64,000 nt of DNA from Streptomyces stelliscabiei. GTDB taxonomy: Bacteria; Actinomycetota; Actinomycetes; Streptomycetales; Streptomycetaceae. Below, piece after piece: positions 13,112-35,224 of this stretch (position 1 is its first letter; the number at the start of each line of letters is the position of its first letter). The notes beneath the pieces were generated by a model. It was not told the origin of the DNA. It made no database searches and saw only the letters and a program-made list of their open reading frames with translations. The stretch is from positions 6,758,001 through 6,822,000 of the forward strand of contig NZ_JADBGF010000001.1 in assembly GCF_014873495.1 (NCBI RefSeq), in the 5' to 3' direction. Made by a program: the position numbers and the translations under genes.

Positions 13112-13161
13112 AGCGAGAGTGCCTTATACGCCTGACCTGCTTCAACTCTCAGACTCCGTAA

Positions 13162-14889: not shown

Positions 14890-14905
14890 TCGGTGAGGCG
14901 ACTTT

Positions 14906-15768: not shown

Positions 15769-15792
15769 GGTGTTTTCCTTTTGTGGCGGGAG

Positions 15793-15821: not shown

Positions 15822-15868
15822 GATCGATTCAGTGGAATGGAGTCGCCTGACCTGCTTCTTTGCAGGTG

Positions 15869-16060: not shown

Positions 16061-17709
16061 CGTGCACTCCTCTTCTTCGTGGTGGACGTGGCCGTTTCAC
16101 GGCGCAGACGTTCTAGGACAGGCGTCAGGCGGTCGTTGCGGATGCCGATGTTGTGGGCGCGCATGATCTCCCTGAGCTGGGTGCGCGTGACCTCGGCGTT
16201 CCCGTCCCGTTCCAGCAACCCGGGTACGTGGGGGCGGAGCTGGGCGACGAGTTGGTCCACGCTCGGCCGCGGCTGCTTCAGGGACGGCTTGCCTTGCCCG
16301 CCTCGGGACCGGTTCCGGGTCGCCTTCGGCCTCCTGCGCGTGGGGACCGCGTGGGGACGGTCCCCAGTCGGGTCGGTCCCCGTCTCGGAGCCGGAGTCTG
16401 CGGGGTCCCCATCCCTGTCGTCGGGGACCGGTCGGGGACGGTTCTCGGCGGGCTCGGTCCCCGTGTCGGAGTCGGGGGCACCACGGTCCCTGGTGGTGGG
16501 GACCGGCGTCAGGGACGAGCTATCCGCGCTTTGAGCTGCAGTTTTGTCCCCGTCGATCCGCCGGTCCCCGTGGTCCCCGGCCTCGTAATCCTCGTCCCCG
16601 TGGTCCCGGTCCCCGCCTGCGTCTGCCCGGTCCCCGGTAGCGTCGATGTCGGGGACTGGGTGCTCCTCTTGGTCCCCGTTCTGTGCGGGCGCCGTCCCCG
16701 CGACCTGATCAGGACGGTCCCCATGGGGACCGTCCCCGGCCGGTGCGGTGTCTGCGTCGGGGACCGTGCGTGGCTGGCTCGTCTGGTCCCCGGCTGCCGT
16801 CCCGTCAAGGGCGGGCCGGCCGAGGGGAGTGTGGTCCGCGCCCGGTGAGGGCTGCGTCCAGGGCGAGGGCAGGTCGATCGTGGCGAGCGCGGTGGCATGT
16901 CGGCGGGCGGCGAGCTGGTTCAGGAGCATGCGGAGCTGCTGGGGATCGCTGCCCACGCCGGAGCGTTCGAGGGCCGACTCAAGTCGGCGTGCGATCCATC
17001 GGCTCCGCCAACTGTCGCCCTGCTTCGGGGACCGTCCGGCCAGGCGGGTAGCCAGGGTGACCGCGCGGGCGGTGGCGCGGTCGCGGGTGATCTGGGCTGC
17101 GTCGCGGTCGCGCTCGGCGATGCCGAGGCGGGACAGCAGGCGCTCGCGTGCTTCCCGTCCGAGGACGGCCAGGATGCCGTGCGAGGCGGCGCCGGGCTTG
17201 CGCAGGCGCAGCTCGATCCCCATGGCCTGGTGCCACAGCATCGCCGCCATGACGGGCCCGACGAACGCCCGTACGGTGCCCCCGACCGGGCCGGATTCGG
17301 CGTAGGCGGGGATCACCTGGACGCCGGTGATCATCCAGACCAGGATCCCCGGCAGGCCCGGAGCGCCCTGGATGGTGAGGTTCTGGCGGGCCATCAGCGC
17401 GGTGGCGAACAGCGCCAGTTCGGCAGCGCCGAACATGGCGGCACGCTCGGCGGTGCCGGCCATGTCGAGGTAGTCGGCGGCGAACCGCCAGCTGGTGTCG
17501 GCGCTGTAGGCGGTGCAGCCGAGCGCGGCGAGCGCCGCGACCCACACCGCTGGGGCGGACGAGCGAACCCTGCCCGCGCGGGCACCACGGCGCAGGACCA
17601 GCCAGCCGCCCGCCAGCACGGCGAGGCCCGACAGTGCAACGGCGCCGGTGATCAGGTGCGATAGCTCGATGGAGACGCCGGCCAGACGTATGGCGGTGGG
17701 GTGGGTCAT
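16057..17709 (-). CDS. Multi-spanning membrane protein with Gly/Asp-rich linker and HTH-like tail
   Basis: 550 residues. About four to five membrane segments lie in the first 170 (for example LITGAVALSGLAVLAGGWLV and AALAALGCTAY). Residues 170-290 are charged and helical. From about 300 to 460 is a disordered, strongly acidic Gly-Asp-rich linker. The last 80 residues (VDQLVAQLRPHV, TRTQLREIMRAHNIG) look like a winged-helix DNA-binding domain. This order, membrane domain plus HTH, resembles DUF2637-type proteins of Streptomyces plasmids and integrative elements, which are thought to act in transfer or spread. It overlaps its neighbours on both sides by four bases (ATGA and GTGA). Confidence 0.7.
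   Translation of the reverse strand: MTHPTAIRLAGVSIELSHLITGAVALSGLAVLAGGWLVLRRGARAGRVRSSAPAVWVAALAALGCTAYSADTSWRFAADYLDMAGTAERAAMFGAAELALFATALMARQNLTIQGAPGLPGILVWMITGVQVIPAYAESGPVGGTVRAFVGPVMAAMLWHQAMGIELRLRKPGAASHGILAVLGREARERLLSRLGIAERDRDAAQITRDRATARAVTLATRLAGRSPKQGDSWRSRWIARRLESALERSGVGSDPQQLRMLLNQLAARRHATALATIDLPSPWTQPSPGADHTPLGRPALDGTAAGDQTSQPRTVPDADTAPAGDGPHGDRPDQVAGTAPAQNGDQEEHPVPDIDATGDRADAGGDRDHGDEDYEAGDHGDRRIDGDKTAAQSADSSSLTPVPTTRDRGAPDSDTGTEPAENRPRPVPDDRDGDPADSGSETGTDPTGDRPHAVPTRRRPKATRNRSRGGQGKPSLKQPRPSVDQLVAQLRPHVPGLLERDGNAEVTRTQLREIMRAHNIGIRNDRLTPVLERLRRETATSTTKKRSAR
16340..16790. repeat. Dense GGTCCCCG / CGGGGACC repeats inside a coding region
   Basis: About 25 copies of GTCCCC or GGGGAC in both orientations within 450 bases, several as back-to-back inverted pairs such as GGGGAC-GGTCCCC. 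They encode the Gly-Asp-rich linker of the membrane protein, with the unusual Gly codon GGG used repeatedly. The repeats could be simple codon expansion or clustered protein-binding sites. Confidence 0.6.
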
Positions 17710-18410
17710 GCTGCCTTTCCTAGAGCGGTGATCAGCGCGCGGGTCTGCACCTGCCGGGGCACGGGCGAGGAGATGGCCTCGTCCTCGTCTTCGTCGGCGG
17801 TGGGGGCGGTCTCGTCGTACAGGCCCCAGTAGCGGTCGCGGTCGGCGACGGCATGGGCCGCCCGGCGCATCAGGTCGCGCGCCCAGTCGAGTTCGAGCTG
17901 GAGGGTGTACGCGAGGCGCTCAGGGCTCCATCCGCGGACGTAGGCGTGTCGGACGACGGCCTCGCGTTCGGCGTCGCTGAGGTGCACGTCGCGGCCCTGG
18001 AAGGCCGCCTTGACCCGGGCGTAGTCGAGGCGCTTGCTGACCCGGGCGTGCCAGGGGCGGCGCTCGATCTCAGTCAGCCCGCCCCACATCCCGTGGCGGA
18101 TGTCGTTGTCCAGGGCGTAGTTGAAGCAGTCCTTCTTGACCGGGCACCGGCCGCAGATGGACTTGGCCTCCGCGGCGGCCTCGTGGTCGCGCGGGGCGTG
18201 GAAGAACAGCTCGTCGGCGTCCTCGGCGGGCATCCCGTGGCACAGGCCCCGGGCATGCCAGCTGTGGTCGGCGATCCCGCGCAGCGTCGGGCGCGCGGTG
18301 TCGTTCGTGGTGATAGTGCGCAAGAGGATCTCCGGGTACGCCTCAGCACTCGCGCGGCGCCGGCGTGGGTGAGGGCGGCGTGGCGCGGAGGTGAGGCGGG
18401 GCGAGGGCAC
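17706..18410 (-). CDS. WhiB-family Fe-S transcription factor
   Basis: 234 residues. The WhiB domain is clear: Cys57 (RGLCHG), then ICGRCPVKKDC giving Cys86, Cys89 and Cys95, and the GMWGGLTE turn near 107-114. The four cysteines hold a [4Fe-4S] cluster. It is longer than classic Wbl proteins (about 85-130 residues), with an extra helical C-terminal region (SDAEREAVVRHAYVRGWS) that looks like another HTH. Wbl proteins of this length are often carried by actinobacterial plasmids and phages. The GTG start is tentative; the domain itself begins about residue 42. Confidence 0.85.
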   Translation of the reverse strand: MPSPRLTSAPRRPHPRRRRASAEAYPEILLRTITTNDTARPTLRGIADHSWHARGLCHGMPAEDADELFFHAPRDHEAAAEAKSICGRCPVKKDCFNYALDNDIRHGMWGGLTEIERRPWHARVSKRLDYARVKAAFQGRDVHLSDAEREAVVRHAYVRGWSPERLAYTLQLELDWARDLMRRAAHAVADRDRYWGLYDETAPTADEDEDEAISSPVPRQVQTRALITALGKAA

Positions 18411-18456
18411 GGCGATGCCGCACCGGAGGTGAGGGAGGTGTGCGAGAAGGGCCGGT

Positions 18457-19212
18457 TCAGCGGCGCTGGAAGCGGCGGTCCGGGCCGTCGAAGTGAACCG
18501 GGGTGCACATGCCGGACAGGCGGGACAAGATCCGGTCGCCGATCACGTCGCGCAGGACCGGCTGCCGTGGGGGCATGCCAGGCTCGCGTACGGGCGGCAG
18601 GTTCGTGGTGAAGATCGTCGGCAGGCGGTTCTGGCAGCGCCAGTTCACCAGCCGGAAGGTGATCTCCTCCGTCCACGTGCTGCTCTTGGCGGCGCCGAGG
18701 TCGTCGAGCAGCAGCAGCGGCACCCGTACGATCCGGCGCAACATGTGCTCCGGGTCCACGCCGGACTTCGGGCGCATGTCGGCGTACATGTCGGCGGCGG
18801 TGGTCGCGTGCCAGGACACACCGCATCCGGCGCCGGTCAGGGCGCGGATCGCGCCGTACGCCTGGTGGGTCTTGCCCGCCCCGGTGCTGCCCCACAGCAG
18901 CAGCGACGGGCCGTGTGCGATCCGCCGGCGTCCAGCCGTGCCGAAGTGCGGATTGAGCCCGCCGGCGTTCGGTTCGACCGCCGCCTCGGTGATGGAGCGG
19001 ACCCAGGCCGTGACCTCAGGGTGCTCGACCACGGCGTGGCGGTAGTCGACCGGGATGCGCGCCTGTGCGGCCTCCAGGGCCGGGATCGGCTCCGGGGTGT
19101 CCGGCAGCGGCGCGGTCGGGTCGATGCCGCGTTCGGCCAGCTTGGCCTCCAGGCGGGCGCGGAGCCGCTCGCCGATGGCGGGCTGGGGGTCGGCGAGATG
19201 CGCGCGGGTCAC
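18457..19212 (-). CDS. DnaC/IstB-like replication ATPase
   Basis: 251-residue AAA+ ATPase. Walker A is LLWGSTGAGKTHQ near 106-118 and Walker B is PLLLLDDLGAAKSS near 153-166; the TIFTTNLPP sensor-1 and GDRILSRLSGM segments match DnaC/IstB helicase loaders. On an integrative element it would load the helicase at the origin. The GTG chosen overlaps the upstream stop by GTGA; an ATG 69 bases upstream gives a longer form. Confidence 0.85.
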   Translation of the reverse strand: MTRAHLADPQPAIGERLRARLEAKLAERGIDPTAPLPDTPEPIPALEAAQARIPVDYRHAVVEHPEVTAWVRSITEAAVEPNAGGLNPHFGTAGRRRIAHGPSLLLWGSTGAGKTHQAYGAIRALTGAGCGVSWHATTAADMYADMRPKSGVDPEHMLRRIVRVPLLLLDDLGAAKSSTWTEEITFRLVNWRCQNRLPTIFTTNLPPVREPGMPPRQPVLRDVIGDRILSRLSGMCTPVHFDGPDRRFQRR

Positions 19213-20258
19213 AGGCGGCCTCCAAACGTCGTCGGCTCGGTCGGATTGAGGTAGGGCGTGTAACCGGAGGTGCTGGCCCATGGCCCCGCGCCGGAGGCGG
19301 ACGACGGCACCGAGGCGGCCTGCGGGGCGGCGTTGACGACCTCGTTCACCAGGCTCGGCAGGACGCTCGGGTGCAGGCCCTTGGCCCGCAGCCGCTCCAG
19401 CGCGGTGCCGATGTCCTGCGGGTCGAAGCGCTCGTCCAGGAGCGCCTTGATCTTGCGCCCCAGGAGCCCGAGGAAGTCCTCAGGCGGTCGGCGCTGGCAG
19501 TCCCGGATGTACTCGGCCACCAGCTCCTTGGCGGAGACCGATCCGGGGACGGCGTCGGGTGCGGGCGCCTCGCGCCCCGTAAGGAATGATCCAGGATCCA
19601 AGATCCTAGATCCAGAGCGGGAGTCCTCCCGTAGTCCTCCGGTAGTCCTCAGTGAGTCCTCCGGGAGATCCCTCTGAGCTGGGCTTTTCGTTGGCGTTGC
19701 CGCAGTGGGGGCAGCTAGGCCAGCCAGCGGCACGGACACCGGCTCTCCAGGGTCCGCCGTGGTCCCCGCTGGCTGCGTGGCGGTCGGAACCGGGCGGTGC
19801 ACCCCGCGCTGAGGGCTCCCGGAGTCATTCGGGAGGGTTCCGGGAGGCGTCATGGATGGCACTATGCGCGTGGGGCAGTCCCGGGTCTGGCACTTGCCGC
19901 AGGGGTGGTGGCCCTGGTGGCTGGGGCAGCGCGGCACTCGGGACGCCGTGGGCTTGTTGATCTTCTGGTGCTGCTCCCACGTCATCACGTGGAGCCACGT
20001 GCGCCCGTCACAGCCGGTGTAGCGGCAGATCAGCCCAGCGGCGGCCAGTTCCTCCAGGTCCTGGGCGACGTGGGCGGCGGTGTGCTCCGGGCGCAGGGCC
20101 CACAGCCGTCCGGCGATGATCGCCGGGTGGTCACGGTGTCGGCCGGAGTCATCGGCCTGCGTCAGCAGCCCGATGAAGGTGAGCATGGCGGTCACCGAGC
20201 ACTCGGCCAGCGACTCCGACTCGAACATCTCGGGCTTGACGGTGCGGATGCGTGCCAT
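19209..20258 (-). CDS. Replication-initiator-like protein
   Basis: 349 residues beginning MARIRTVKPEMFESESLAE, the typical opening of actinobacterial element/phage replication organiser proteins with an N-terminal winged helix (VTAMLTFIGLLTQADDSGR). The middle is Pro/Thr-rich and disordered; the C terminus (DIGTALERLRAKGLHPSVLPSLVNEVVNA) is helical and may contact the helicase loader, whose gene overlaps by four bases. The pair resembles phage O/P or DnaD-DnaC modules. Confidence 0.75.
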   Translation of the reverse strand: MARIRTVKPEMFESESLAECSVTAMLTFIGLLTQADDSGRHRDHPAIIAGRLWALRPEHTAAHVAQDLEELAAAGLICRYTGCDGRTWLHVMTWEQHQKINKPTASRVPRCPSHQGHHPCGKCQTRDCPTRIVPSMTPPGTLPNDSGSPQRGVHRPVPTATQPAGTTADPGEPVSVPLAGLAAPTAATPTKSPAQRDLPEDSLRTTGGLREDSRSGSRILDPGSFLTGREAPAPDAVPGSVSAKELVAEYIRDCQRRPPEDFLGLLGRKIKALLDERFDPQDIGTALERLRAKGLHPSVLPSLVNEVVNAAPQAASVPSSASGAGPWASTSGYTPYLNPTEPTTFGGRL

Positions 20259-20386: not shown

Positions 20387-20925
20387 GCGAGAATCTCCTT
20401 TGGTGTTGCCGCGCTGAAACGCCCCGTGGAAGGGATCAGCGTGGTGATGGTGGCGATATCCGCCCTTGCCGGGGCGGTTTGTGCCGTGAGGCGTTCGGCG
20501 TCCGCGAGTTGCGTCTCTCGGGCGCCGTCGCTGTATGCGGGCTTAGGGAGCCCGAAGTGTGGGCATGCCGCTGCTCCTCGTGTTCGACGTGCCGGGCGGG
20601 CTGCCCGGAGGGACGACGAACATACGCACGACCCTGCGTCAAGATCCAGACTTGGCTCTTAAACCCTCTACAAGTCGCACGGTTGGGCGCGACGCGGGGC
20701 GGGTGATCATGAGTGGTCCTCGTGCCTAGGGGTGCAGCGAACGCCACGGGTAGCGATGCGAGCAGCATCCCTCGCCACGGCTGCAACACTTTGGTGTTGC
20801 CGTACCTGGAACATACGCCAAAGTGATCCCGAGCTGTCAACACCGTAGTGTTCCGTCTCGCGGGTTGGTCTCACGTCAACACTGGAGTATCGTCGGCGCC
20901 TCAGGGTGTAGATGGGAGGAGCCGA
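20387..20925. promoter_or_regulatory. Divergent control region of the mobile module
   Basis: About 540 bases without a convincing gene between the replication operon (minus) and the XRE gene (plus). It holds the three operator-like sites described separately and a further half-site, GGTGTTGC, at about 20402, which shares the 13-mer TTTGGTGTTGCCG with the site at 20790. The AT-richer pockets here probably contain both divergent promoters. Confidence 0.6.
20783..20890. promoter_or_regulatory. CAACAC-N4-GTGTTG operator sites
   Basis: Site 1 is a perfect palindrome, GCAACAC-TTTG-GTGTTGC, at 20783-20800. Site 2, CAACAC-CGTA-GTGTTC, is at 20838-20853. Site 3, CAACAC-TGGA-GTATCG, is at 20877-20892 and is weaker on its right side. 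All three lie just upstream of the XRE gene, which is the likely repressor binding them. Confidence 0.75.
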
Positions 20926-23991: not shown

Positions 23992-24642
23992 TCAGGTGCC
24001 GCGGACGTCGCGTCCCAAAGCGGCCGAGATAGCGCGCTGATGGACAAGTCCGGTGCGTACCAGCCGGGCCTCCGGCGTGAAGCAGTCGACGATCGTCATG
24101 TGGTTGGCGGCCGGGCAGATGCCGCCATCCACGATCACGGATGCGCCCACGCCCGTTGTTGTCAGGAAGTGGTTGACCTCGTCGACGGTGATGGCAGGAC
24201 CGGGGTCGTCCGGGCCTGCGTCGCCGGAGATGTTGACCGTGGTGGCGGCGACGGGTGCGGTGGAGAGGGACGCCAGGCGGCCGAGGAGACCGGAGTCGTA
24301 GGTGGTCAGAGCGGGGGAGCCGACGGCTGTGTACCCGGCGGCGTCGGCCGGATCGCGCCACGGCAGGAGGAGCGCGAGATCTCCGGGCCAGAACGCGTCG
24401 GCGAGCCGCCTGGCCTCCGCCGTGAGCTGGAAGCGTTGCTCGCATGCCTCAAGGGAGGGCAGGACGAACGCCAGAGACTTGCCGGGCGGGCGTTTCTTGC
24501 CGTCGAAGATGCGCTTGCAAGCATCCGCGTTTCCGGCGTCGGCGCAGATCATGTACCAGCGCTTGGTCGGCACGATCACCAACTCGCCGGCCTCGATCGC
24601 GCGTGCGGCGATGTCGAGGTCGGTGGGGTGGATCAGACGCAT
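23992..24642 (-). CDS. Sua5/YciO/YrdC-like protein
   Basis: 216 residues with the YrdC fold signature: an N-terminal strand-loop IVPTKRWYMICADAGN in place of the usual PTDTVYGL, KKRPPGKSLAFVL (the KxR motif), and TTVNISGDAG (the S/TxN motif). YrdC enzymes make L-threonylcarbamoyl-AMP from threonine, bicarbonate and ATP; standalone relatives in biosynthetic clusters may make other carbamoyl-adenylates. The altered N-terminal loop argues against the housekeeping enzyme. Last gene of the cluster I operon, with a GAGGAG ribosome site. Confidence 0.8.
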   Translation of the reverse strand: MRLIHPTDLDIAARAIEAGELVIVPTKRWYMICADAGNADACKRIFDGKKRPPGKSLAFVLPSLEACEQRFQLTAEARRLADAFWPGDLALLLPWRDPADAAGYTAVGSPALTTYDSGLLGRLASLSTAPVAATTVNISGDAGPDDPGPAITVDEVNHFLTTTGVGASVIVDGGICPAANHMTIVDCFTPEARLVRTGLVHQRAISAALGRDVRGT

Positions 24643-24674
24643 GGACGTGCTCCTCACGAGATGGCGGTCGGCTT

Positions 24675-25442
24675 TCATCGGGCGGTCGGCGCGGTAGCCG
24701 TGACGGTGGCGAGGGGCGGGTAGTCGAGCCACGGGTCGCGGAGGGCTTCGAGGCGGCGTTGGGCGTGGCTGGAATGCGACACACGGAAGTACGCCATGAC
24801 TCTGGGTGTCGAGGTGTAGTTGCGGCCCACCGAGTGCGGAACGAGGTGGTGCATGAGCAGGACGTCGCCAGGCTTGCCCAGAAAGGCTGTTCCGCTCTCG
24901 GTATCGATCTGCGGGGGGACCTGCTCGGTGACGCCGAGGGACCACTCGGAACGGAACCACCGGGCCATGGCCTGGTGCCCACCGGGCAGGTACCGCAACG
25001 CCCCGCCATCCGGATCGCTGATGTCGGATAGCACCACGCCGACGAGCAGTGAGAAGGTGCGCAGTTCATCAGGATCGAGATGCGGGCAGGCGACTCCGTC
25101 GACGTGCATCGCCTTCTCGGGCTGTGACGTTGGCAGTGCGTCCTCGGGTATCCGGATCTGGATCTGCGTCGTGGTGACCGGCTGGATGTCACCGAGTAGA
25201 TCGGTCGCCAGTTCCTCCGCTCCCGAATCCGAGAACAGGCCCAGCAGGTCCGGGTGTTGGCCGAGTTCGGGTGCGAAGGTGCGTTGCGTGTACGCGGAGA
25301 TCTGCGAGGCGTCCATCTCCTCGCGGAACCAGGCGTCGATGAGGGACGAGGCTCGGGCGATCAGGGCATCGGGTACGAGGCCGCGTCGGACGGCAACGCC
25401 GTCCCTTGCGAAACCGGCCTTCTCTTCATAGGTGAGGGACAT
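24675..25442 (-). CDS. PhyH-family Fe(II)/2-oxoglutarate oxygenase
   Basis: 255 residues. The facial triad is visible: His113-x-Asp115 in AMHVDGVACP and His203 in LVPHSVGRN, with Arg214 of TPRVMAYFR as the probable 2-oxoglutarate anchor. These enzymes hydroxylate, halogenate or rearrange unactivated C-H bonds. ATG lies five bases after GGAGG, and the gene overlaps the creatininase-family gene by 17 bases. Substrate unknown, presumably a product of the upstream enzymes. Confidence 0.85.
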   Translation of the reverse strand: MSLTYEEKAGFARDGVAVRRGLVPDALIARASSLIDAWFREEMDASQISAYTQRTFAPELGQHPDLLGLFSDSGAEELATDLLGDIQPVTTTQIQIRIPEDALPTSQPEKAMHVDGVACPHLDPDELRTFSLLVGVVLSDISDPDGGALRYLPGGHQAMARWFRSEWSLGVTEQVPPQIDTESGTAFLGKPGDVLLMHHLVPHSVGRNYTSTPRVMAYFRVSHSSHAQRRLEALRDPWLDYPPLATVTATAPTAR

Positions 25443-26256
25443 TGGTCCTCCGAAGGGTGTCCGGGACATCGGTATTGGGGGCCGCAAGGCGGGCGAGTAC
25501 CTCCGCGCCAGCGTCCACGGCGCTCGCGATGATCGAGTGGCCGGCGGCGGCGCTGGCTTTTCGGGGATCGCCGCCGATGATGCCGAGTGAGGAGATCGCC
25601 GGGTCGCAGGATGACCACGGCCACGCGGTGCCGCGTCGGAGTATGAGCCGCTGAATCTCCTCGCGTCGGCCCGGATCGGGGGTGTGGTCGGCAGGGATTC
25701 GGCCGAGGTGCACCATGTCCGGGGCGAGGGCGAGCATCATCGAGGTCTCGCGGACACCCGCGTGGATCTCGGGCAACTCGCTGACGGTGGCCTCGGGCGA
25801 CAGCGAGACGGGGTTGATGACGCAGACGGCGATGCCGTAGGTCTGCTGGAGTTCGTAGGCCAGCGTTTCGAGGACGCCGCGGTTTCCGCCGTGCCCGTTG
25901 ACGATGAGCAGCCGACGGGCGGTGGTGGCGCTGACGTACTGACCGACGATGGTGTCAAGCAGGCTGCTGAATGTCGTGGTCTTCAACGAGACGACGCCGG
26001 CCGACCACGCGTGCTCCGGGGAGAGCCCGTACGGCAGGGCGGGCAGGGCCCACAGGTCGTGGTGGTCGCCGTAGCGTCCGACCAGCATCTGGGCGAATCG
26101 TTCGGCTATGACGGTGTCGGTATTGAGCGGCAGGTGTGGGCCGTGCTGCTCCGTCGAGCCGATCGGCAGGACCAGGACCGAGTGGCGGCTGAGCCGCGCC
26201 GAGACGTCCGGCGCGGTCAGCTGGTCATACGTGCGCGGTCTCCCGGTTTCCCTCAT
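25426..26256 (-). CDS. Creatininase-family amidohydrolase
   Basis: 276 residues. Metal-binding motifs are complete: LPIGSTEQHGPHLPLNTD near 30-47, VNGHGGNRG near 118-126 and IHAGVRETSMM near 165. The family includes creatininase, the archaeal F420/riboflavin-pathway hydrolases and MftE, which works beside a radical SAM enzyme in mycofactocin formation. All cleave amide bonds with two metal ions. ATGA overlap with the methyltransferase gene. Confidence 0.85.
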   Translation of the reverse strand: MRETGRPRTYDQLTAPDVSARLSRHSVLVLPIGSTEQHGPHLPLNTDTVIAERFAQMLVGRYGDHHDLWALPALPYGLSPEHAWSAGVVSLKTTTFSSLLDTIVGQYVSATTARRLLIVNGHGGNRGVLETLAYELQQTYGIAVCVINPVSLSPEATVSELPEIHAGVRETSMMLALAPDMVHLGRIPADHTPDPGRREEIQRLILRRGTAWPWSSCDPAISSLGIIGGDPRKASAAAGHSIIASAVDAGAEVLARLAAPNTDVPDTLRRTNVPHL

Positions 26257-27047
26257 GTCCGGTTCCTGCGGCCGATCCTGAGGAGGAATTCGTTCTCCTC
26301 GCCGAACGTGTCGTCGTCGCTGAACTCGGCCAGCGTCGTCTTCACCCTCGACTCGAACTCGCCCAGGCGGGCGCCGAACAGGTGCGGAGCCGCGAAGGAG
26401 GTCGAGTACAGGTATCCGAGGATGCTGTCGGTCGTCCAGGTGCGCTCGACCGGAACCCGTACCTCCTCGACCTGGTTGAAGGGTGACTCCTCCATGATCT
26501 CGCTGTACGGCCGGTTGTGGTGCTGGAAGGTCCCCTGACCAGCGCGCCGTTCCTCGCCGAGGAACTCCTTGATGACGCTGCGGACGGCTTCCTTCCAGGG
26601 ACTTCCCGCCGCCCAGAAGCTGTTGTCGCCGAAGATGGCGACAGCTCCGTCCGGGGCGACCTGCGCGTCAAGACCGGAGAGAACCGCTGCCTGGTCGAGC
26701 CAGTGGAATGCCCGGCAGATCGTCACAAGGTCCGCGCGCCAGCCGGACGGCGGCGTGAACTCCTCGGCCGTGCATTCGACGAGCGACAGACTCGCGCCTT
26801 CCGGAAGCGCCGGGCGGAGCGCCGACTCGGCGGCGGCGAGCATGTCGGCGTCGTTGTCGATGGCGATGATGTCGTCGAAGCGGTCCAGCAGCGCTTCCAC
26901 GACAAGGCCCGTTCCGGTACCGACGTCCAGCAGGCGGCGCGGGCGGTCGGTGGCCGTCGCCCGGTTCAGGACGTCGGCCACCTCGGCCGGGATGCCCGGA
27001 CGGTACTGCCGGTAGAAGCCGACGGTGCCGGTGAACAGGCTGCTCAT
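26253..27047 (-). CDS. Class I SAM-dependent methyltransferase
   Basis: 264 residues. SAM-binding motif I is RRLLDVGTGTGLVVEAL near 37-54, motif II acidic loop IIAIDNDADM, and motif IV region ADLVTICRAFHWLD. The overall pattern (FYRQYRPGIPAEVADVL start) resembles methyltransferases of small molecules rather than of RNA. Coupled to both neighbours by ATGA overlaps. Confidence 0.85.
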   Translation of the reverse strand: MSSLFTGTVGFYRQYRPGIPAEVADVLNRATATDRPRRLLDVGTGTGLVVEALLDRFDDIIAIDNDADMLAAAESALRPALPEGASLSLVECTAEEFTPPSGWRADLVTICRAFHWLDQAAVLSGLDAQVAPDGAVAIFGDNSFWAAGSPWKEAVRSVIKEFLGEERRAGQGTFQHHNRPYSEIMEESPFNQVEEVRVPVERTWTTDSILGYLYSTSFAAPHLFGARLGEFESRVKTTLAEFSDDDTFGEENEFLLRIGRRNRT

Positions 27048-27712
27048 GGGATTTCCTCCGTGCGTGAGAATGCTTGGACGTGCTTGGCTGCGGCCGAGAG
27101 GTCGTCGGCGACGAGCACGCCGTGATCAACGATTAGATCCGGCTCGGGAGTTGGTCGGCCACGCGATATCCAGACGGCCCCAAATCCGGCGTTGACGGCC
27201 CCGACCACGTCACAGGCCCAGTCGTCACCGATGTGGAGGATGCGCGCAGGATCCACCGCGCAGTGTTCGGCGACCGCGAGGAACGCCCGCCGGTCCGGCT
27301 TGGCGTAGCCGATACGGCACGAGGGGAAGAAGTCGCTCACCCACGGCGCTGTGCGACGCCGGAGCCCGTCGGTGTCCGCGTCCGCGCAGGTCACGTTGGA
27401 CAGGGTCACGACCGTCGCCACCTCGCTCAGCACGCGCAGGGCGTCCATGGTCCCGGGGAACAGCGTGAGGGGAGCCGGTGGTAGATCCCGGGGGAAGTCG
27501 GCGGGTGCGACCTGCAGGGCCTCGCACACGTCGGCCACGACGGCGTCGCCGAGCGACGGTTGCGTGTGCAGGCGGTCGCGCATGATCTCGCGCGCCTGCT
27601 TCGCCGGCAGGGGGGATGCCGCGGTCAGCCGCATCGTGAGGCCGGGGCCTTCCGCGGTTCCCAGCGTTCCGCCGACGTCGACGCTGATGAGGTGGGGGCG
27701 CCGGCGGGTCAC
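27044..27712 (-). CDS. HAD-family hydrolase
   Basis: 222 residues. Motif I is LISVDVGGTLG, so the nucleophile Asp is present but the second Asp of DxDxT is Gly. Motif II VTLSN, motif III Lys in GYAKPDRRAF and motif IV HIGDDWACDVVGA are present. The changed second Asp, normally the general acid, makes ordinary phosphatase activity less certain. Likely acts on a phosphorylated intermediate of the cluster I operon. GTG start overlapping the upstream stop by GTGA. Confidence 0.8.
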   Translation of the reverse strand: MTRRRPHLISVDVGGTLGTAEGPGLTMRLTAASPLPAKQAREIMRDRLHTQPSLGDAVVADVCEALQVAPADFPRDLPPAPLTLFPGTMDALRVLSEVATVVTLSNVTCADADTDGLRRRTAPWVSDFFPSCRIGYAKPDRRAFLAVAEHCAVDPARILHIGDDWACDVVGAVNAGFGAVWISRGRPTPEPDLIVDHGVLVADDLSAAAKHVQAFSRTEEIP

Positions 27713-28152
27713 GCGGCACTCCTCGCGGGAGGCAGTGCGGAGACGATGGCCGCGATGCGGGCGCTACGGATCTCACGCGTCGTGGCCTCGGACAGGAAGG
27801 TGAGGGCGTAGCGCAGTTCCGCGTCGTCCAAGGCCTCGAGGATCCGCCCCTCGGCTTCGGCGGCCGACTCCAAGTCCCCTGGTGCCGTTTGCGGACGCAG
27901 GCCGTGCGGTAGGTGCAGTGTCCCGGACCAGCGTGCTCGGAGCGCGGGTACGGTTCCGGGGTTCGTGGGGTGCAGGACGGTGACGTCGTCCAGGGTCATG
28001 ATGCGTACGGGGATGTTCGTACCGTCCAGGTCGAGACGTCCGGACAGGAAGGTGTCGTGCCCGCCGAGGCGTTCGGTCAGCACCAGGAGCGGTCCGTCGG
28101 GCGTGCGCCCCACGGATCCCTCGACAGGGAGGCTTACTGATGTTCGCGGCAT
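27709..28152 (-). CDS. Unknown protein of the cluster I operon
   Basis: 147 residues after a strong AGGAGG site. It begins MPRTSVSLPVEGSVGRTPDG, has a beta-rich first half (DTFLSGRLDLDGTNIPVRIM) and a helical C terminus (RILEALDDAELRYALTFLSEA). No catalytic motif is obvious. It overlaps the enolase-like gene by 19 bases, so it is surely part of the operon; I do not recognise the family. Confidence 0.7.
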   Translation of the reverse strand: MPRTSVSLPVEGSVGRTPDGPLLVLTERLGGHDTFLSGRLDLDGTNIPVRIMTLDDVTVLHPTNPGTVPALRARWSGTLHLPHGLRPQTAPGDLESAAEAEGRILEALDDAELRYALTFLSEATTREIRSARIAAIVSALPPARSAA

Positions 28153-29204
28153 GGTGTCCTCCTCGGGATGGTGCCGAGACCGGGAGATTCCGGCAGGCGT
28201 AGGTGTCCGTGTTCGGGGAGCCAGGTGTGGTCGTAGAGTCGCTGCCGGCCCGGCTCCCACTGAAGGCGGTACTCGATCGCGGGGGCGGCCTCGGGGAACG
28301 CGGCGGCAAGGTGGATGCCGGGGACCAGCGAGCGGCCATGCGGATAGACCGGCACCTTGCGGGCGCGAGCAGCTGCCAGGACTTCGACAGCCCTGGTGAG
28401 ACCGCCGCATCCGACGACGTCGAGTGTCAGGGCCACAGGGCGGGTCGTGTCGAGCACGGTGGCGGGGTCCTCGCGGAGCGAGAGGCGCTCGCCTATGGCC
28501 ACGGGCACGGGCGTCGATGCCAGTCGGTCGTATGCCCGTAGATCGTGACGTGGCAGAGGATCCTCCAGCCAGATCAAGGCGGACGGATCGACCAGTCCAG
28601 CAAATGCCATGGCCAGGGAGGGAGTCCACGTACCCACAGCGTCCACGGCGATCCGGACCCCTGTTTCCTCGGCCGCGTGTTCCACAGCCCTGGCGAGAGT
28701 CCGCGCTGCCCCCGTCGCGTCGTGTGGTGTTCGGCAGCGGAGCCCCCACTTGGTGAAGGCCCAACCGCCTGCCAGGACTTCGCTCAGGACGTCCGACTCG
28801 ACAGGGCCGGTCAGCTCCTGTGTCAGCCACGACGCGTACGCCGGTACGGATCGGCGCGCGGTCTTCGGAGTCAGGAGGTCCGCCACCGGACGACCGTCAA
28901 GGCGCCCGTGCAAATCCCACGCCGCGCAGTCGATGGCACCCATGGCCCACCGGGCATGCGGGTGCGGACTCGCGATCGCAGGCCCCAACAGGCGTCGGCA
29001 GAGCGCCTGATGGTCTGTGGCATCAGCGCCGATCACGGTCGGCGCGAGGACCTTGTCCGCGTAGGAGGCGATGGCAGCGCTGACGGGGCCGTACCAGCCC
29101 GTCTCCCCAGCAGCGTGAAGCGCGATGAACGCCGTGTCATCCCCCGCAGGTTCGGCATCCCGTACGTCGACGACTTCGATCCGGTCAATGCGGATCGCGC
29201 TCAT
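28134..29204 (-). CDS. Enolase-superfamily enzyme (MR/MLE group)
   Basis: 356 residues. The N-terminal capping domain is followed by the TIM barrel with AFTKWGLRC (Lys on strand 2), VRIAVDAVGTW and LIWLEDPLPRHD and PVAIGERLSL carrying acidic metal ligands on strands 3 to 5, and a His in VYPHGRS. Members abstract a proton alpha to a carboxylate (racemases, dehydratases, cycloisomerases). An acid-sugar dehydratase or racemase would fit the sugar-phosphate chemistry next door. ATGA overlap with the phosphoketolase gene. Confidence 0.8.
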   Translation of the reverse strand: MSAIRIDRIEVVDVRDAEPAGDDTAFIALHAAGETGWYGPVSAAIASYADKVLAPTVIGADATDHQALCRRLLGPAIASPHPHARWAMGAIDCAAWDLHGRLDGRPVADLLTPKTARRSVPAYASWLTQELTGPVESDVLSEVLAGGWAFTKWGLRCRTPHDATGAARTLARAVEHAAEETGVRIAVDAVGTWTPSLAMAFAGLVDPSALIWLEDPLPRHDLRAYDRLASTPVPVAIGERLSLREDPATVLDTTRPVALTLDVVGCGGLTRAVEVLAAARARKVPVYPHGRSLVPGIHLAAAFPEAAPAIEYRLQWEPGRQRLYDHTWLPEHGHLRLPESPGLGTIPRRTPCREHQ

Positions 29205-31261
29205 CAGGCCGCCTCCCGGGCCGCGAGAAGGCGATTCGCCACCTGGACCAGGCCGGCGGGGGTCAGACCCAGAGTGTCGGCGAGTTGCGCCTGGGGCGTC
29301 GGCCCGGTCGGCTCCTGCCAGCCGATGACCTCGGCCGGACGGCGAAGCCTTCCCGCCAGTAGGCCCCAAACCGCGGCCGGATGGCCGAGGGTGACCACGA
29401 GAACAGCGGCGTGCTGGCCGAAGTATTGATCGATGTCCGCGTCGGACAACCCTCGCGGCCATGTCGTGGGATCACCGAGCACGGTCAGGTCGAGGAGATT
29501 CACGGCCCGGACGCGGCATCCGCGGTTTCCGCGAAGCAGCGGGATGGCCTCAGCGGCGACGGCGGCCGGGAGGTCGCCCGCGGTGACGATGGTGATGTCC
29601 GGTTCGCCGTCATCGCTCAGATGCGGCCAGATGGCGAGCCCGTACGCCTGCTCTTCGTGCACCGTGTCAGTGGGGTGGGCGGTCGCGGTGTGCTTGCCCG
29701 CCACGACGACGTTGACACCTCCATCCGAATGGAGAGCCTCTTCCAATGCGACTGCGGTACGGGTCGGATCGGCGGGTGTGAGCACTCGGACAGCGGGGTC
29801 GCCCATGGCCAGGAGTGCTGTGGCGAAGGACGGATCTCCGTGCGTGAAGACGTTGTTCCAGCCGTACGACGTCAGAAGCAGGTTCAGGCTGGGCAGAACC
29901 GGCGCCCCCGCGAGGCGGCGCTGTTTGAGGTGAGCGGCGACTCCGCTCAGCAGCAGCGGAGCGAAGGCTTCGTAGGAGACCAGGACTCCGCGACGGCCGC
30001 TGGCTGTCCAGCCGGCGAGCCACTCCAGCAGGACCTCCTCGGCCAGCAACTCCTTCGTCCAGGGTTCTCTGGCCAAGCCCCCGAGACGGTTGGAGGCCAG
30101 CTCGTCCGGGCTGAACACCTGGAACCCGCCGTCCGCGGCGTGGTCGCGGATCACGGTGGTCACGGCGTCGGCGAACGTGCCAAAGCCCTTGTAACCGAGC
30201 GGCGTTCGGTGATCGGCCGGCCTCTGTTCGGCGTGCGTCGGGCGTAGCCGGCACCACCGGGCCGCTGCCATCGCACGAGCCAGTCCGCCTAGCGGGCGCC
30301 CGTCGGGATCGAACAGCTCGTGTGGCGAGTACCGGGCGAGCCACCGTTCCAGGAGTTCCAGTTGGTCGGCCACGCGTCCGGGGGCTGACAGCGGGGTCTT
30401 GTGGGCGCGCGGGGTGCCGAGAATCCGGCGGCCTTCCACCGTCTCCGGTCCACCCCAGCCCTTCGTGCACCGTAGGAAGACGGCGACACGGCGGCTACGG
30501 CTGGTCGTGTCCAGGGCCTGCTGGAACACCTCGTGAAAGGCCGCGTGCTCCTCCTGGGAGCCCTCGACGACATGCACCACTCGGGCGTCCCAGCCCTGGC
30601 CGATGGCGTACGCGCGCAGTTGGTCGTCGGTCATTCCTCCCAGCAGGCTTTGGCCGCCCATCCGGAATCCGTTGACGTGGATGACGGGGAGAACCTGTGC
30701 GCCCGGCACGACGCCTGTCGCCAGCCACGAGGCCGCCGTCGTGGGCGTCTCGCATTCACCGTCCCCGACGACGGGGACCAGAACGCGGTCGGGCGCGTCG
30801 AGCGCGGCACCCTGGGCGAACGCCAGCGCACCGCCGAGCCGTCCTCCGAGGTAGTCACCGGCCCACAGGGCGGGATGTACCTCGGCGCCGAGTCCGTCGA
30901 CATGTGGGAACGCCCGTGAAAGCCGGATCAGGCCGTCCACGTCAGGCGTGAACTGGGGGCGGATCGCCTGGAGTTCTCCGCTGAGCCAGGCCATCGACAG
31001 CTGGACGATCCCCGCATGGCCGGCGCCGAGGATCGGCACCACGTCCCGCTCGGGGGACGTCTGGCCCGCGGCCAGCGCGACATGCGCCAGTGCCCAGGCC
31101 GTGCCCGGAACGGTGCCCCAGTGACCGGAGGGGTCGGGCTTCACGTGTTCGTGGGACAGGGGCTCGGAGAGCAGTACGTTCCCGCGGAGGTGCAGCTGGC
31201 ACACCGAGGCGTATGTCGTGGCTCGCCAGAGGGCGTCGGCCAGGACCGCGACGCCGGTCAT
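29204..31261 (-). CDS. Phosphoketolase-like ThDP enzyme
   Basis: 685 residues, slightly short of the usual 790. Phosphoketolase landmarks are present in altered form: DPSGHWGTVPG, ILGAGHAGIV, VVGDGECETPTTAASW (ThDP-magnesium motif), HVNGFRMGG, RCTKGWGGPE, and FSPDELASNRLGG. Family members split xylulose-5-P or fructose-6-P into acetyl phosphate plus an aldose phosphate. Divergence at usually fixed positions (GPGHGG to GAGHAG, ETGP to ETPT) suggests a different substrate. Start overlaps the radical-SAM-like gene by ATGA. Confidence 0.85.
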   Translation of the reverse strand: MTGVAVLADALWRATTYASVCQLHLRGNVLLSEPLSHEHVKPDPSGHWGTVPGTAWALAHVALAAGQTSPERDVVPILGAGHAGIVQLSMAWLSGELQAIRPQFTPDVDGLIRLSRAFPHVDGLGAEVHPALWAGDYLGGRLGGALAFAQGAALDAPDRVLVPVVGDGECETPTTAASWLATGVVPGAQVLPVIHVNGFRMGGQSLLGGMTDDQLRAYAIGQGWDARVVHVVEGSQEEHAAFHEVFQQALDTTSRSRRVAVFLRCTKGWGGPETVEGRRILGTPRAHKTPLSAPGRVADQLELLERWLARYSPHELFDPDGRPLGGLARAMAAARWCRLRPTHAEQRPADHRTPLGYKGFGTFADAVTTVIRDHAADGGFQVFSPDELASNRLGGLAREPWTKELLAEEVLLEWLAGWTASGRRGVLVSYEAFAPLLLSGVAAHLKQRRLAGAPVLPSLNLLLTSYGWNNVFTHGDPSFATALLAMGDPAVRVLTPADPTRTAVALEEALHSDGGVNVVVAGKHTATAHPTDTVHEEQAYGLAIWPHLSDDGEPDITIVTAGDLPAAVAAEAIPLLRGNRGCRVRAVNLLDLTVLGDPTTWPRGLSDADIDQYFGQHAAVLVVTLGHPAAVWGLLAGRLRRPAEVIGWQEPTGPTPQAQLADTLGLTPAGLVQVANRLLAAREAA

Positions 31262-32355
31262 CGCCCACCGACCAGGCTCTCGCCGGCGAAGGTGAAGTAC
31301 CACAAGGGCCGGTAGCACTCCCACGCCACGGGACGCAGGCCGCTGGAGCCCATGATTTCCTCGATGGCCCGGCGAGCCTGGAGGTAGAACTCCAGGTCCT
31401 GGGCACCCTCGGACCGCAACCCGGCCATGATCGAGTTGTGGGCCTGGTACACCTGGAAGTTCGGGAACTCCGTGACGTACGGCGCGAGAGCCGCGACACC
31501 CTCGCGGAGTGCTTTGAGGCCGTCCAGGCCGACGATGTACGTGAACGAGGTGCCGTGGCCGACGCGCAGCGCGCGCTGGAGTACCTGCGCCATCTCGGAG
31601 GTCGCGAGTGTGGCCTTGCTGGCCTTGAGCAGCAGGTCGCGCCGGGTGAAGCACTCGGCGGTGAGGCGCAGCACGAAGGGGGACGCGTGCTTGGCGAGGT
31701 CCTCGAACGCTTCCTCGGTGCGCAGCACCGAAGTGAGGAAGCCGATCCGTGCGTTGATGTTGTGCTCGGTGAGCACGCTCCGGAGCGATCGGAGGTGGTC
31801 GGTCGCTGCCCGCTCGCGTTCGAAGCAACCGGTCGAGACAGTGATCTCACGAAGTTCGGTCAGGTCGCCGTGGGGATGCTGTTCCAACATCGCGGCCAGC
31901 AGTTCGTTCAGCTCCCGCTCTTCCGACAGGCGGGGATCAGCGGCGGCCTCCAGGGTGTTGGGGCAGAAGGCGCATCCGACACAGCGGCTCCGGGCGTTCG
32001 GGTTGAGCGTCGCGGCTCGGCCGCCGTCACGGAAGTACCCGCCAACGGCCTCGTCGGCATCGATGCGTTCAATGCTCCCGATCGGCTCACCGCCGATCGT
32101 CAGCTGTCCGTCCTCCAGACGGAACGGCGAACGAGCCGCGTTCAGAGGGACGATGACCTGCCAGGGCACGGACGGAGCGGTGGCAAGGCGCACCAGCACG
32201 CGTGCCCGGTGGCGTGGGAGGTCCGACGAGATCCCGTGCAGGTTGATGGAAATGAGCAGCGCGTCCTCGACGGGAACCGCGTATCGGGCCGCGAGGCGCT
32301 CAACAGACGTGAGCGAAGCCGTCGATGCGGGTAGTTCACCAAGCACTGCGGACAT
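31258..32355 (-). CDS. Radical-SAM-like protein with CxxCxxC cluster motif
   Basis: 365 residues. After about 120 residues of N-terminal domain comes RSRCVGCAFCPN with Cys125, Cys128 and Cys131, close to but one residue shorter than the canonical CxxxCxxC. A TIM-barrel-like series follows (ITVSTGCFERE, IGFLTSVLRTEE, VLRLTAECFTRRD, FTYIVGLDGLKALREG), as expected for radical SAM enzymes. First gene of the nine-gene coupled operon. The non-canonical spacing is a real oddity and lowers certainty about the family. Confidence 0.7.
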   Translation of the reverse strand: MSAVLGELPASTASLTSVERLAARYAVPVEDALLISINLHGISSDLPRHRARVLVRLATAPSVPWQVIVPLNAARSPFRLEDGQLTIGGEPIGSIERIDADEAVGGYFRDGGRAATLNPNARSRCVGCAFCPNTLEAAADPRLSEERELNELLAAMLEQHPHGDLTELREITVSTGCFERERAATDHLRSLRSVLTEHNINARIGFLTSVLRTEEAFEDLAKHASPFVLRLTAECFTRRDLLLKASKATLATSEMAQVLQRALRVGHGTSFTYIVGLDGLKALREGVAALAPYVTEFPNFQVYQAHNSIMAGLRSEGAQDLEFYLQARRAIEEIMGSSGLRPVAWECYRPLWYFTFAGESLVGGR

Positions 32356-32506: not shown

Positions 32507-33199
32507 TCAGGGGCGAGCGAACTCGCGAAGCTGAACCATGAGGGCGTCGACGTCGCTCAGGTCAGGGAGAACAAGGTGGGCGCCGGCTTGTCGTAGCTCG
32601 TCTTCGCTGTTGACTCCGGATGCCACCGCCACGATGTGCGCGCCTGATGTGATGGCGGCATCGACATCGCGGGGGGTGTCGCCGACGAGCACCACGGCGG
32701 TGTCGTCCGGAAGGTCGTAGACGGCCCGGACCCTGCTCCGCGCCACGTCCACCAACGCCGCCCTGTCAGCGGAGTCGGCACCGTAGGCGCCGACTCCGAG
32801 GTCCACGAGGGCGTCCAGTCCGAAGGCGCCGAGTTTCACCCGCGCGTTCGCAGCGATGTTCCCCGTAAGGACGGAGGAGACCATGCCGTCCTCCTCTGCC
32901 ACGGCCTTGAGGGCTTGGCGAACTCCTGGCAGAACCCGGCCCCGCTGGTTGAGGTCCGCTTCACGGCCTGCCCCTGCCGCCTCCAGCGCGACCAGCGCGT
33001 CTTCCCACTCAGGCGGTTCCAGGCCGTGATCGTGGAACATGCCCGCGATGATCAACCGGTCTGTCCGACCCTCCGTGCGTGCGGGACGTACCGGCGCCCG
33101 ACCGGCGAGAGCCGTGAACGCGGCGGCATAAATCTCTTTGCTGACACCGGCGTTGTCGATGAGGGTGTGGTCGATGTCCCAGAGCACGATGAGCGGCAT
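32507..33199 (-). CDS. HAD-family phosphatase
   Basis: 230 residues with all HAD motifs: VLWDIDHTLID (DxDxT), SVLTGN, and VLVGDTPRDVDAA. It resembles phosphoglycolate-phosphatase-like enzymes and is clearly similar to the other stand-alone HAD protein of this window (46,713-47,441). Divergent from the XRE/DUF5919 gene 87 bases away; 151 bases upstream of the radical-SAM-like gene, so it may head the cluster I operon. Confidence 0.85.
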   Translation of the reverse strand: MPLIVLWDIDHTLIDNAGVSKEIYAAAFTALAGRAPVRPARTEGRTDRLIIAGMFHDHGLEPPEWEDALVALEAAGAGREADLNQRGRVLPGVRQALKAVAEEDGMVSSVLTGNIAANARVKLGAFGLDALVDLGVGAYGADSADRAALVDVARSRVRAVYDLPDDTAVVLVGDTPRDVDAAITSGAHIVAVASGVNSEDELRQAGAHLVLPDLSDVDALMVQLREFARP

Positions 33200-33286: not shown

Positions 33287-34057
33287 GTGAATGAACGATT
33301 GCGCTCGGCACTCGTCCAGCGGGGGATCACCGAAGAAGATCTCGCCAAGCTCTGTTCCGTCGACCCGAAGACCGTGGGCCGCTGGCTCTCCGGACGGGTG
33401 CCCCACCGCCGGCACCGCTTCGTCGTCGCGAAACACCTGCAGGTGGACGAGGTGTACCTCTGGCCGAACGATCGCCAGCGACCCGTGCACCTCGAAGCCC
33501 TGCGGTCGGAGATCGTCGAGGTCTACCCGAACCGCGCCAGCGTCCCCAGGGACGTCTGGATCTCCCTCCTGCTCGGCGCCGTGAAGCACATCGACGTCCT
33601 CGTCTTCTCCGGTACCTTCTTCGCCCAGACCAACCCACGCATCGCCCGCATGCTGCAGGAACGCGCACAGGCCGGAGTCAAGGTCCGACTGTGCTTCGGC
33701 GATCCATATGGAGAAGCGGTAGCCGTCCGGGGCCGCGAGGAAGGGATCGGCGACACCCTCGCCGCGAAGATCCGGGCCTCTCTGACGTACTACCGCGGCC
33801 TGGTCGGCGCCCCCGGCTGCGAGGTCCGACTGCACGACACGACGCTGTACAACTCGATCTTCCGGTACGACGACCAGTTACTGGTCAACCCGCACATCTG
33901 GGGCCAGCCAGCGAGCGCCAACCCTCTCTTCCAGCTCCGGCGCACGGACGGCACCGACTGGTGCGACCGCTACACCGAGAGCTTCGAAGCCGTATGGAAC
34001 ACCGCGCGCCCCTGGGCGCCCAACCGTCAGGAGCACCACCAGCGTGGGCAGGACTGA
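33287..34057 (+). CDS. XRE-type regulator with DUF5919-like C-terminal domain
   Basis: 256 residues from GTG. An HTH at 1-60 (ITEEDLAKLCSVDPKTVGRW, RHRFVVAKHLQVDE) is followed by a domain resembling a degenerate phospholipase-D-like fold (IDVLVFSGTFFAQTNPRIARML, AQAGVKVRLCFGDPYGEAV, VRLHDTTLYNSIFRYDDQLL). Such C-terminal domains may sense a nucleotide or phosphate ligand. It is the likely regulator of cluster I, which is transcribed away from it. Confidence 0.75.
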   Translation: MNERLRSALVQRGITEEDLAKLCSVDPKTVGRWLSGRVPHRRHRFVVAKHLQVDEVYLWPNDRQRPVHLEALRSEIVEVYPNRASVPRDVWISLLLGAVKHIDVLVFSGTFFAQTNPRIARMLQERAQAGVKVRLCFGDPYGEAVAVRGREEGIGDTLAAKIRASLTYYRGLVGAPGCEVRLHDTTLYNSIFRYDDQLLVNPHIWGQPASANPLFQLRRTDGTDWCDRYTESFEAVWNTARPWAPNRQEHHQRGQD

Positions 34058-34511
34058 GTACTACAACGACCCGATGGCACCCAAGGCCAACACCCTGATC
34101 CCAGCCAGCAACCTCCTCGTCGTCAACAGCGAAGGCGCGATCCTGCTCCAGCGGCGCCGCGACACCGGACAGTGGGCCCTGCCAGGTGGCGCCCAGGACA
34201 TCGGGGAGAGCCCCGCGCAGTGCGCCGTGCGCGAATGCGAGGAGGAGACCGGCATCGTCGCCGAAGTCACCGGGTTCCTCGGTGTCTACTCCAACCCGGC
34301 GCACATCATCGAGTACACCGATGGAGAGATCCGGCAGCAGTACGAAGCCGCCTACATCGGCCGCCCGGTCGGTGGCGCTCCGACGGTGAACGACGAGGCC
34401 GACGGCGTGCGCTGGGTACTGCCGGAAGAACTCGACGGCCTCGACATCCACGCCAGCATGCGGGAGCAGATCGGCCACTACCTCTCCGGCGAATACCCGT
34501 ATCTGGGCTGA
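34044..34511 (+). CDS. Nudix hydrolase
   Basis: 155 residues with a complete Nudix box, GGAQDIGESPAQCAVRECEE followed by ETGI, near 48-71. Cleaves a nucleoside diphosphate linked to another group. GTG start with AGGAG eight bases upstream, overlapping the regulator gene by 14 bases. The YxxPxH-like segment YSNPAHIIEY fits NDP-sugar or nucleotide substrates. Confidence 0.85.
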   Translation: MGRTEYYNDPMAPKANTLIPASNLLVVNSEGAILLQRRRDTGQWALPGGAQDIGESPAQCAVRECEEETGIVAEVTGFLGVYSNPAHIIEYTDGEIRQQYEAAYIGRPVGGAPTVNDEADGVRWVLPEELDGLDIHASMREQIGHYLSGEYPYLG

Positions 34512-34518
34512 GCCGGGC

Positions 34519-35082
34519 CTATACCGTCAGCCCAGCCGCGTCGGCTCGCGCCTGCACCCGCGCCACACTCTCGTGGATGGCGGGTGCGGCTCTGCGGATG
34601 AAGCGTCCGACCACGCTGTCCGTTCCGTAGCGACCGAGGATCTCGCCCACCCGCGCATACGACGTCGTTGGCGATCCGTCGGGAGTGGTGGTCATGTCGC
34701 AGTACACCAGGGCATCCACCAGGACTTCGTCGTCCAGCTGCGGAAACTCCGCCGCCAGGATCTCCCGCAGCCCACGTTCCTCGGCTTCGAGCGGGGCGAA
34801 GGAATGGTTGGCCACCAGCCGCACGACCCGCTCTTCCACCCCAGGCAGCGTTCGCAGGTGGCGAGCCCCGTCCAGAGGGTGGAAGCCCGTCAGCGCCACG
34901 ACCGGCGCATACCCGATGTCGTGCAGCACCGCGGCTGCGACCAGCGCCTCGCCATCATCTCCGAGTGCCGGCGCCAGCCACTCGGCACGGGCCGCCACCC
35001 CGCGAGTGTGAGCCCACCGGCGAGGCAGGGACTCAGCGAGCAGGGACTCCGCGAGTTCGTATGCCCAACCGACCACAGCCAT
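34519..35082 (-). CDS. HD-domain phosphohydrolase
   Basis: 187 residues. His25 in WAHTRGVA, the His-Asp pair in AAVLHDIGYAP (54-55) and ALVYCDMTT near 140 give the H...HD...D ligand set of HD hydrolases. Likely a nucleotide or cyclic-nucleotide phosphohydrolase. The ATG (MAVVGWAYEL) was preferred; an ATG eight codons upstream is also open. Converges with the Nudix gene. Confidence 0.75.
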   Translation of the reverse strand: MAVVGWAYELAESLLAESLPRRWAHTRGVAARAEWLAPALGDDGEALVAAAVLHDIGYAPVVALTGFHPLDGARHLRTLPGVEERVVRLVANHSFAPLEAEERGLREILAAEFPQLDDEVLVDALVYCDMTTTPDGSPTTSYARVGEILGRYGTDSVVGRFIRRAAPAIHESVARVQARADAAGLTV

Positions 35083-35224
35083 GGCGCGAGCGTACCTTCC
35101 GATCACGCGGCGGAGCAGGGATCAGGTGTGTCGGCTCCGTCGTCAACCTTGCACGGGATGTCGCGCCTGGCGGGAGACGTCGTGTCTGCTCACCTCTGGG
35201 TCCTTCTCTCGGATGTCGAATCGT

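Follow-up and report, generated by a model that had tools for sequence, protein, structure and literature searches.

A 64,000-nucleotide stretch of the Streptomyces stelliscabiei genome (10.5 Mb; contig NZ_JADBGF010000001.1, positions 6,758,001 to 6,822,000; hereafter the window) encodes, on its minus strand between 32355 and 23992, nine consecutive open reading frames free of internal stops. They form a real unit that is conserved and transferred between genomes, and their enzyme families show altered motifs. We consider it fairly likely that this unit is an orphan biosynthetic operon, spread by horizontal transfer, that makes a small polar metabolite. Rather than a housekeeping compound, this metabolite would probably be a phosphosugar-derived antimetabolite and might mimic nucleotides. 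All nine genes listed in a first-pass annotation, made from the sequence alone, were confirmed in place and with their families:

31258 to 32355, minus strand: radical S-adenosylmethionine (SAM) enzyme (rSAM), the first gene, with a CX2CX2C motif (C125, C128, C131) and an invariant C177 (TGCF)
29204 to 31261, minus strand: phosphoketolase-like thiamine pyrophosphate (TPP) enzyme (PK), of a subfamily with a three-residue deletion at the WRQDHNG loop and HQ replaced by HK
28134 to 29204, minus strand: enolase-superfamily enzyme of the mandelate racemase type (ENO), with Lys, D-E-E metal ligands and an Asp/His dyad
27709 to 28152, minus strand: protein of 147 amino acids (UNK), a six-strand beta-barrel with C-terminal OmdA/YdeI-type helices
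27044 to 27712, minus strand: HAD-family hydrolase (HAD) with a DVGGT motif, likely a phosphatase
26253 to 27047, minus strand: class I SAM-dependent methyltransferase (MT) of the BioC/trans-aconitate type
25426 to 26256, minus strand: creatininase-family amidohydrolase (CRE), an accessory gene of type A and type C loci (see below)
24675 to 25442, minus strand: PhyH-type Fe(II)/2-oxoglutarate oxygenase (PhyH)
23992 to 24642, minus strand: YrdC/Sua5-like protein (YrdC) with an altered acceptor pocket (PTxRWYM)

Family assignment was supported by Pfam matches to XFP_N in PK (E-value 5e-61), MR_MLE_C in ENO (4e-32), creatininase (5e-56), PhyH (3e-11) and YrdC (6e-25), while no Pfam match of its own was found for the window's UNK. 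The genes had been described as linked mostly by 4-base overlaps; seven of the eight junctions do overlap, but only four by that length (rSAM/PK, UNK/HAD, HAD/MT and MT/CRE), the others being ENO/UNK (19 bases), CRE/PhyH (17) and PK/ENO (1, assuming that ENO starts at the ATG at 29204). The sole non-overlapping junction is PhyH/YrdC, with a gap of 32 bases. Most starts are preceded by purine-rich ribosome-binding sites. An Rfam scan found no element belonging to the operon, its only match being the Streptomyces small RNA Scr6925 (20400-20530, plus strand).

The rSAM gene was detected in 20 of 296 Streptomyces genomes, in three of 396 Actinomycetota and in eight plasmids, and a profile search recovered it on 52 genome contigs of actinobacteria (Streptomyces, Actinacidiphila, Streptacidiphilus, Saccharopolyspora, Actinoplanes, Salinispora, Plantactinospora, Geodermatophilus, Nocardia, Actinomadura, Nocardiopsis and Actinophytocola) and one archaeal metagenome-assembled genome. 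Six core genes (rSAM, PK, ENO, UNK, HAD and MT) are kept in 50 of 58 de-replicated loci, a retention far beyond chance, and the full nine in 23 of them. For every gene, pairwise distances co-vary with the rSAM distances (Mantel test, r = 0.69-0.96, 0 of 500 permutations as high). The loci fall into four architectures, A, A', B and C, the last being represented here by two gene orders:

Type A, that of the window: rSAM-PK-ENO-UNK-HAD-MT-CRE-PhyH-YrdC
Type A': rSAM-ENO-UNK-HAD-MT-PhyH-YrdC-PK, plus a second PhyH
Type B: rSAM-ENO-HAD-GGDEF-UNK-PK-(PhyH2)-MT
Type C, archaeal locus L082: HAD-MT-CRE-PK-rSAM-UNK-PhyH-ATPgrasp-ENO-YrdC-GGDEF
Type C, distant actinobacterial genome L109: CRE-PK-rSAM-UNK-PhyH-YrdC-ATPgrasp-like-ENO-HAD-MT

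In type B, GGDEF and UNK are fused in Streptomyces and separate in Nocardia, and YrdC is missing with the remainder kept. The two type C loci, in which UNK was identified by its C-terminal motif only, have an ATP-grasp-like homologue in common. The contig of L082 looks truly archaeal, since genes for TFIIB and a HerA-like protein lie on it within about 5 kb. The earlier proposal that the genes act together is borne out by their conserved order, by the co-varying distances and by the fact that an archaeon and a remote actinobacterial lineage have the set in a re-assembled form. Nocardia type B loci (L023 20850-22947) additionally contain two extra radical SAM genes, one with a low-scoring viperin-type match and one SPASM-like, and a second methyltransferase.

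The operon has moved horizontally among many actinobacteria. It resides on linear Streptomyces plasmids, on pNF1-type plasmids of Nocardia farcinica and on a Mycobacterium intracellulare plasmid. In a quick tree of rSAM, on which L024 and L082 sit on long branches, Saccharopolyspora is nested within a Streptomyces group with starred support, and the Kitasatosporales need at least three changes, forced by starred branches. The operon has a GC content of 0.688, against 0.71-0.74 at four other loci of the same genome. Decayed or truncated copies occur in several genomes, and on one N. farcinica plasmid an IS3-family transposase gene lies inside rSAM. With the same gene order found in other actinomycetes, the set is not peculiar to this strain; nor does it look like a primary-metabolism operon, which would be expected in most of the genus, as 93% of the Streptomyces genomes are without rSAM, and this sporadic presence, together with the decayed copies, argues strongly against a role in primary metabolism. 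Plasmids of soil actinomycetes, as well as those of Nocardia and Mycobacterium associated with humans, carry this uncharacterised pathway, whose gene set is kept across domains.

Specialisation is evident in rSAM, PK and YrdC. The Pfam match of rSAM is weak (7e-4), and its fold was confirmed by an AlphaFold model (mean predicted local distance difference test score, pLDDT, 86.5) that matches the radical SAM enzymes PylB, MqnE, LipA, HydG and NosL with Z of about 13-14; a PDB sequence search with the rSAM profile returned chance matches only. The protein shares the radical SAM barrel with these enzymes but differs in having CX2CX2C (51 of 51 sequences) instead of the canonical CX3CX2C, an additional invariant cysteine in TGCF and an N-terminal extension of about 100 residues. 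As three cysteines are present, a 4Fe-4S cluster is still possible.

PK has the domain order XFP_N, XFP, XFP_C, and its TPP and catalytic residues are present. Compared with the housekeeping phosphoketolase encoded elsewhere in the same genome (L100), which is of the normal kind, it retains GHWG, GxGHxG, GDGE, KG, the histidine before HQ/HK, SNR, the catalytic glutamate and YEAF; by contrast, every aligned member, including that of the archaeon, has lost QDH from the WRQDHNG loop and has HK (in one case HR) in place of HQ. The substrate loop is thus incomplete, and the score is about half the nearest NCBIfam cut-off, short of a curated family. In Bifidobacterium phosphoketolase structures, the WRQDHNG loop closes over the substrate; because this loop is shortened, PK likely acts on an altered acceptor or substrate. 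The sugar-phosphate origin suggested by the first-pass annotation stands in part: with its TPP and phosphate-site residues retained, PK could plausibly use a substrate of the phosphoketose type, but it is not an ordinary phosphoketolase, and assays with xylulose 5-phosphate or fructose 6-phosphate may well fail for this reason.

In ENO, the D-E-E metal ligands, the lysine and the His-Asp acid/base residues are conserved in the alignment, their roles being presumably those of the corresponding residues of mandelate racemase. Its nearest relatives are acid-sugar dehydratases, and phosphoketolases are usually catabolic; both facts would suit an operon in which these two enzymes, HAD and CRE degrade or detoxify an unusual sugar acid or nucleoside. 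Such a function is nevertheless improbable, although it fares best among the alternatives to biosynthesis: MT, rSAM, YrdC and PhyH would be costly and unusual for catabolism, the substrate loop of PK is partly lost, and neither a sugar transporter nor a kinase is found among the conserved neighbours.

YrdC belongs to the same family as the L-threonylcarbamoyladenylate synthase TsaC/Sua5 and retains KxR and, mostly, SxN (TxN in the window, SxN in the archaeal member, lost in type A' members), whereas PTxTVYG has become PTxRWYM, the VRxP arginine is lost and the score lies below the TIGR00057 cut-off. The carbamoyl-adenylate chemistry proposed earlier thus agrees with the conserved KxR but not with the acceptor side, where both the PTETVYG-type and VRxP residues of TsaC/Sua5 and an equivalog-level score are lacking. 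The host genome carries other YrdC-family genes, a housekeeping copy among them. Modification of a macromolecule, tRNA or DNA, was weighed in this context, YrdC, rSAM, MT and PhyH being reminiscent of tRNA-hypermodification components and the fold of rSAM being near RlmN, Elp3 and LipA. This explanation is quite unlikely, as it leaves the phosphoketolase-like, enolase-type and creatininase enzymes without a role, the operon has no TsaD-like or RNA-binding partner, and type B loci dispense with YrdC while retaining the rest.

The gene first reported as an unknown protein is present and can now be described further: its model consists of a six-strand barrel and three helices, and UNK is of the YdeI/OmdA type, given that 10 of 32 relatives match OmdA (best 8.6e-5). 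It is probably non-catalytic. The predicted structure gave no significant structural match, and a PDB sequence search with the UNK profile gave chance matches only. The DxG motif of HAD was considered as an oddity and dropped, since active HAD phosphatases with this type of motif exist. CRE has mycofactocin MftE, of the same creatininase family, as its best NCBIfam match (134.8 bits against a cut-off of 172), but the operon lacks the mycofactocin gene set and could not accommodate a gene for a precursor peptide; a mycofactocin or other ribosomally synthesised and post-translationally modified peptide pathway was ruled out, as the genes overlap, no free small ORF exists in the operon and UNK is a beta-barrel/OmdA protein.

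The combination of enzymes had been said to fit no familiar pathway, and indeed none was matched in the family libraries or in the literature searched. Searches on the enzyme combination, pNF1 with radical SAM, CX2CX2C radical SAM and phosphoketolase-like natural-product enzymes returned nothing relevant within a coverage that leaves out most subscription journals. For a biosynthetic operon, we infer the product and the following order of steps. The six-gene core would build the small polar metabolite: rSAM would rearrange or join a phosphorylated sugar or nucleotide-derived precursor, the specialised PK would cleave a ketose phosphate and pass the two-carbon acyl unit to an acceptor other than free phosphate, ENO would epimerise or dehydrate the acid from this step, HAD would remove the phosphate and MT would methylate. 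Lineage-specific modules (CRE, one or two PhyH, YrdC, GGDEF, ATP-grasp) would then tailor the core product, with PhyH hydroxylating, CRE hydrolysing an amide and YrdC carbamoylating.

Hints as to the nature of the product come from the surroundings of the operon. The first-pass annotation overlooked a conserved upstream HAD gene and three further neighbours, all of which hold their positions in about 13 loci of the window's subclade:

32507 to 33199, minus strand: HAD2, weakly PhnX/phosphoglycolate-phosphatase-like, directly upstream; a candidate extra operon member
33287 to 34057, plus strand: divergent helix-turn-helix (HTH) regulator, a candidate regulator of the operon
34044 to 34511, plus strand: NUDIX hydrolase, beside the regulator
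34519 to 35106, minus strand: HD-domain phosphohydrolase

Several NUDIX genes also lie upstream in type A' loci. In three Nocardia species, an extra, divergent pyrF gene, encoding a subfamily-1 orotidine 5'-monophosphate (OMP) decarboxylase, stands beside rSAM, immediately upstream of the operon or of what is left of it:

L023, 11866-12561: divergent subfamily-1 pyrF
L099, 8200-8955: divergent subfamily-1 pyrF
L098, 7863-8636: divergent subfamily-1 pyrF

This pyrF is the only match of its class in two of the three species (two genomes searched). OMP decarboxylase is inhibited by pyrazofurin, and the minimycin cluster shields its host through a phosphatase and a raised uridine monophosphate pool (PMC8724604). 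Like these nucleoside antibiotic clusters, the operon comprises phosphatases and hydrolases, and its Nocardia versions adjoin a pyrimidine-pool gene (PMC8724604). It differs from them by the addition of the phosphoketolase-like and enolase-type enzymes. To our knowledge, these two have no counterpart in the minimycin and pyrazofurin clusters. The NUDIX, HD and HAD2 neighbours, the GGDEF gene, the Nocardia pyrF and the parallels with pyrazofurin and minimycin lead us to lean towards a nucleotide-like product.

A more specific proposal is offered tentatively, and we hold it to be rather doubtful as a whole: the operon would represent a new class of mobile pathway, found on actinobacterial plasmids and in an archaeon, in which a re-purposed PK and a CX2CX2C rSAM make a nucleotide-mimicking metabolite, the Nocardia OMP decarboxylase being a resistant copy of its target. 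If true, both the biosynthetic use of a phosphoketolase and the displaced cysteine motif of the radical SAM enzyme would add to known enzymology; the position of pyrF beside the operon makes the target hypothesis directly testable. Several points weigh against a biosynthetic, nucleotide-related role. The adjacency of pyrF is limited to a few Nocardia, and since Streptomyces commonly have NUDIX and HTH genes, their presence here may be a coincidence. No transporter or resistance gene common to all loci was found with the operon, nor any phosphoenolpyruvate (PEP) mutase (PepM), non-ribosomal peptide synthetase, polyketide synthase or precursor gene that would fix the chemistry.

The GGDEF gene bears on a different explanation, in which the operon serves anti-phage defence or signalling: its enzymes would synthesise an alarm molecule of the nucleotide type, with GGDEF as the signal generator. 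The LTGL-type, GDVD.LK and GGDE motifs are intact in all actinobacterial members of type B, the archaeal member has GGDD, the operon is sporadic and plasmid-borne, and CRISPR genes lie near one locus. Even so, there is little likelihood of such a function, because type A has no GGDEF, conserved effectors such as a nuclease or a membrane protein are lacking, the metabolic enzymes are numerous and specific, PADLOC identified no described defence system and gave only a generic methyltransferase-domain match to mad2, and no relative was found in the phage and IMG/VR collections. A phosphonate-like pathway is very unlikely: HAD2 weakly matches TIGR03351, and in L110 a sulfopyruvate/phosphonopyruvate-type decarboxylase (TIGR03845, above cut-off) is encoded next to a distant rSAM homologue, but a PEP-mutase-type gene is neither in the operon nor recognised among the conserved neighbours, and L110 is a 3.7-kb contig with the decarboxylase genes on the opposite strand. 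This low-GC contig (33%; L110 1-3711), from a genome grouped with Actinomycetota, encodes the rSAM relative, with CX2CX2C kept, and a methyltransferase, next to the decarboxylase, which is of the two-subunit type.

A joint product had also been suggested for the operon (cluster I) and a second cluster of the window (cluster II; 50256-58981, plus strand), which encodes glycosyltransferases, a 2-hydroxyacid dehydrogenase, a MoaA-like protein, a second radical SAM protein and a NodU-type carbamoyltransferase. This suggestion is not supported: of the 14 other cluster I genomes tested (a near-identical strain, which has a close ortholog of the carbamoyltransferase, not counted), 13 lack such an ortholog, and in the remaining one the relative (67%, S. 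glomeratus) lies on another contig than cluster I. Cluster II is a separate cluster.

Elsewhere in the window, relaxase-like (MobA/VirD2), WhiB and IstB-like genes occupy 12656-19281 on the minus strand, a region next to the operon that resembles an integrative conjugative element or what remains of one. A phage-type tyrosine integrase is encoded at 48239-49735 (minus strand), with a LacI-type helix-turn-helix matched between its central and catalytic parts.

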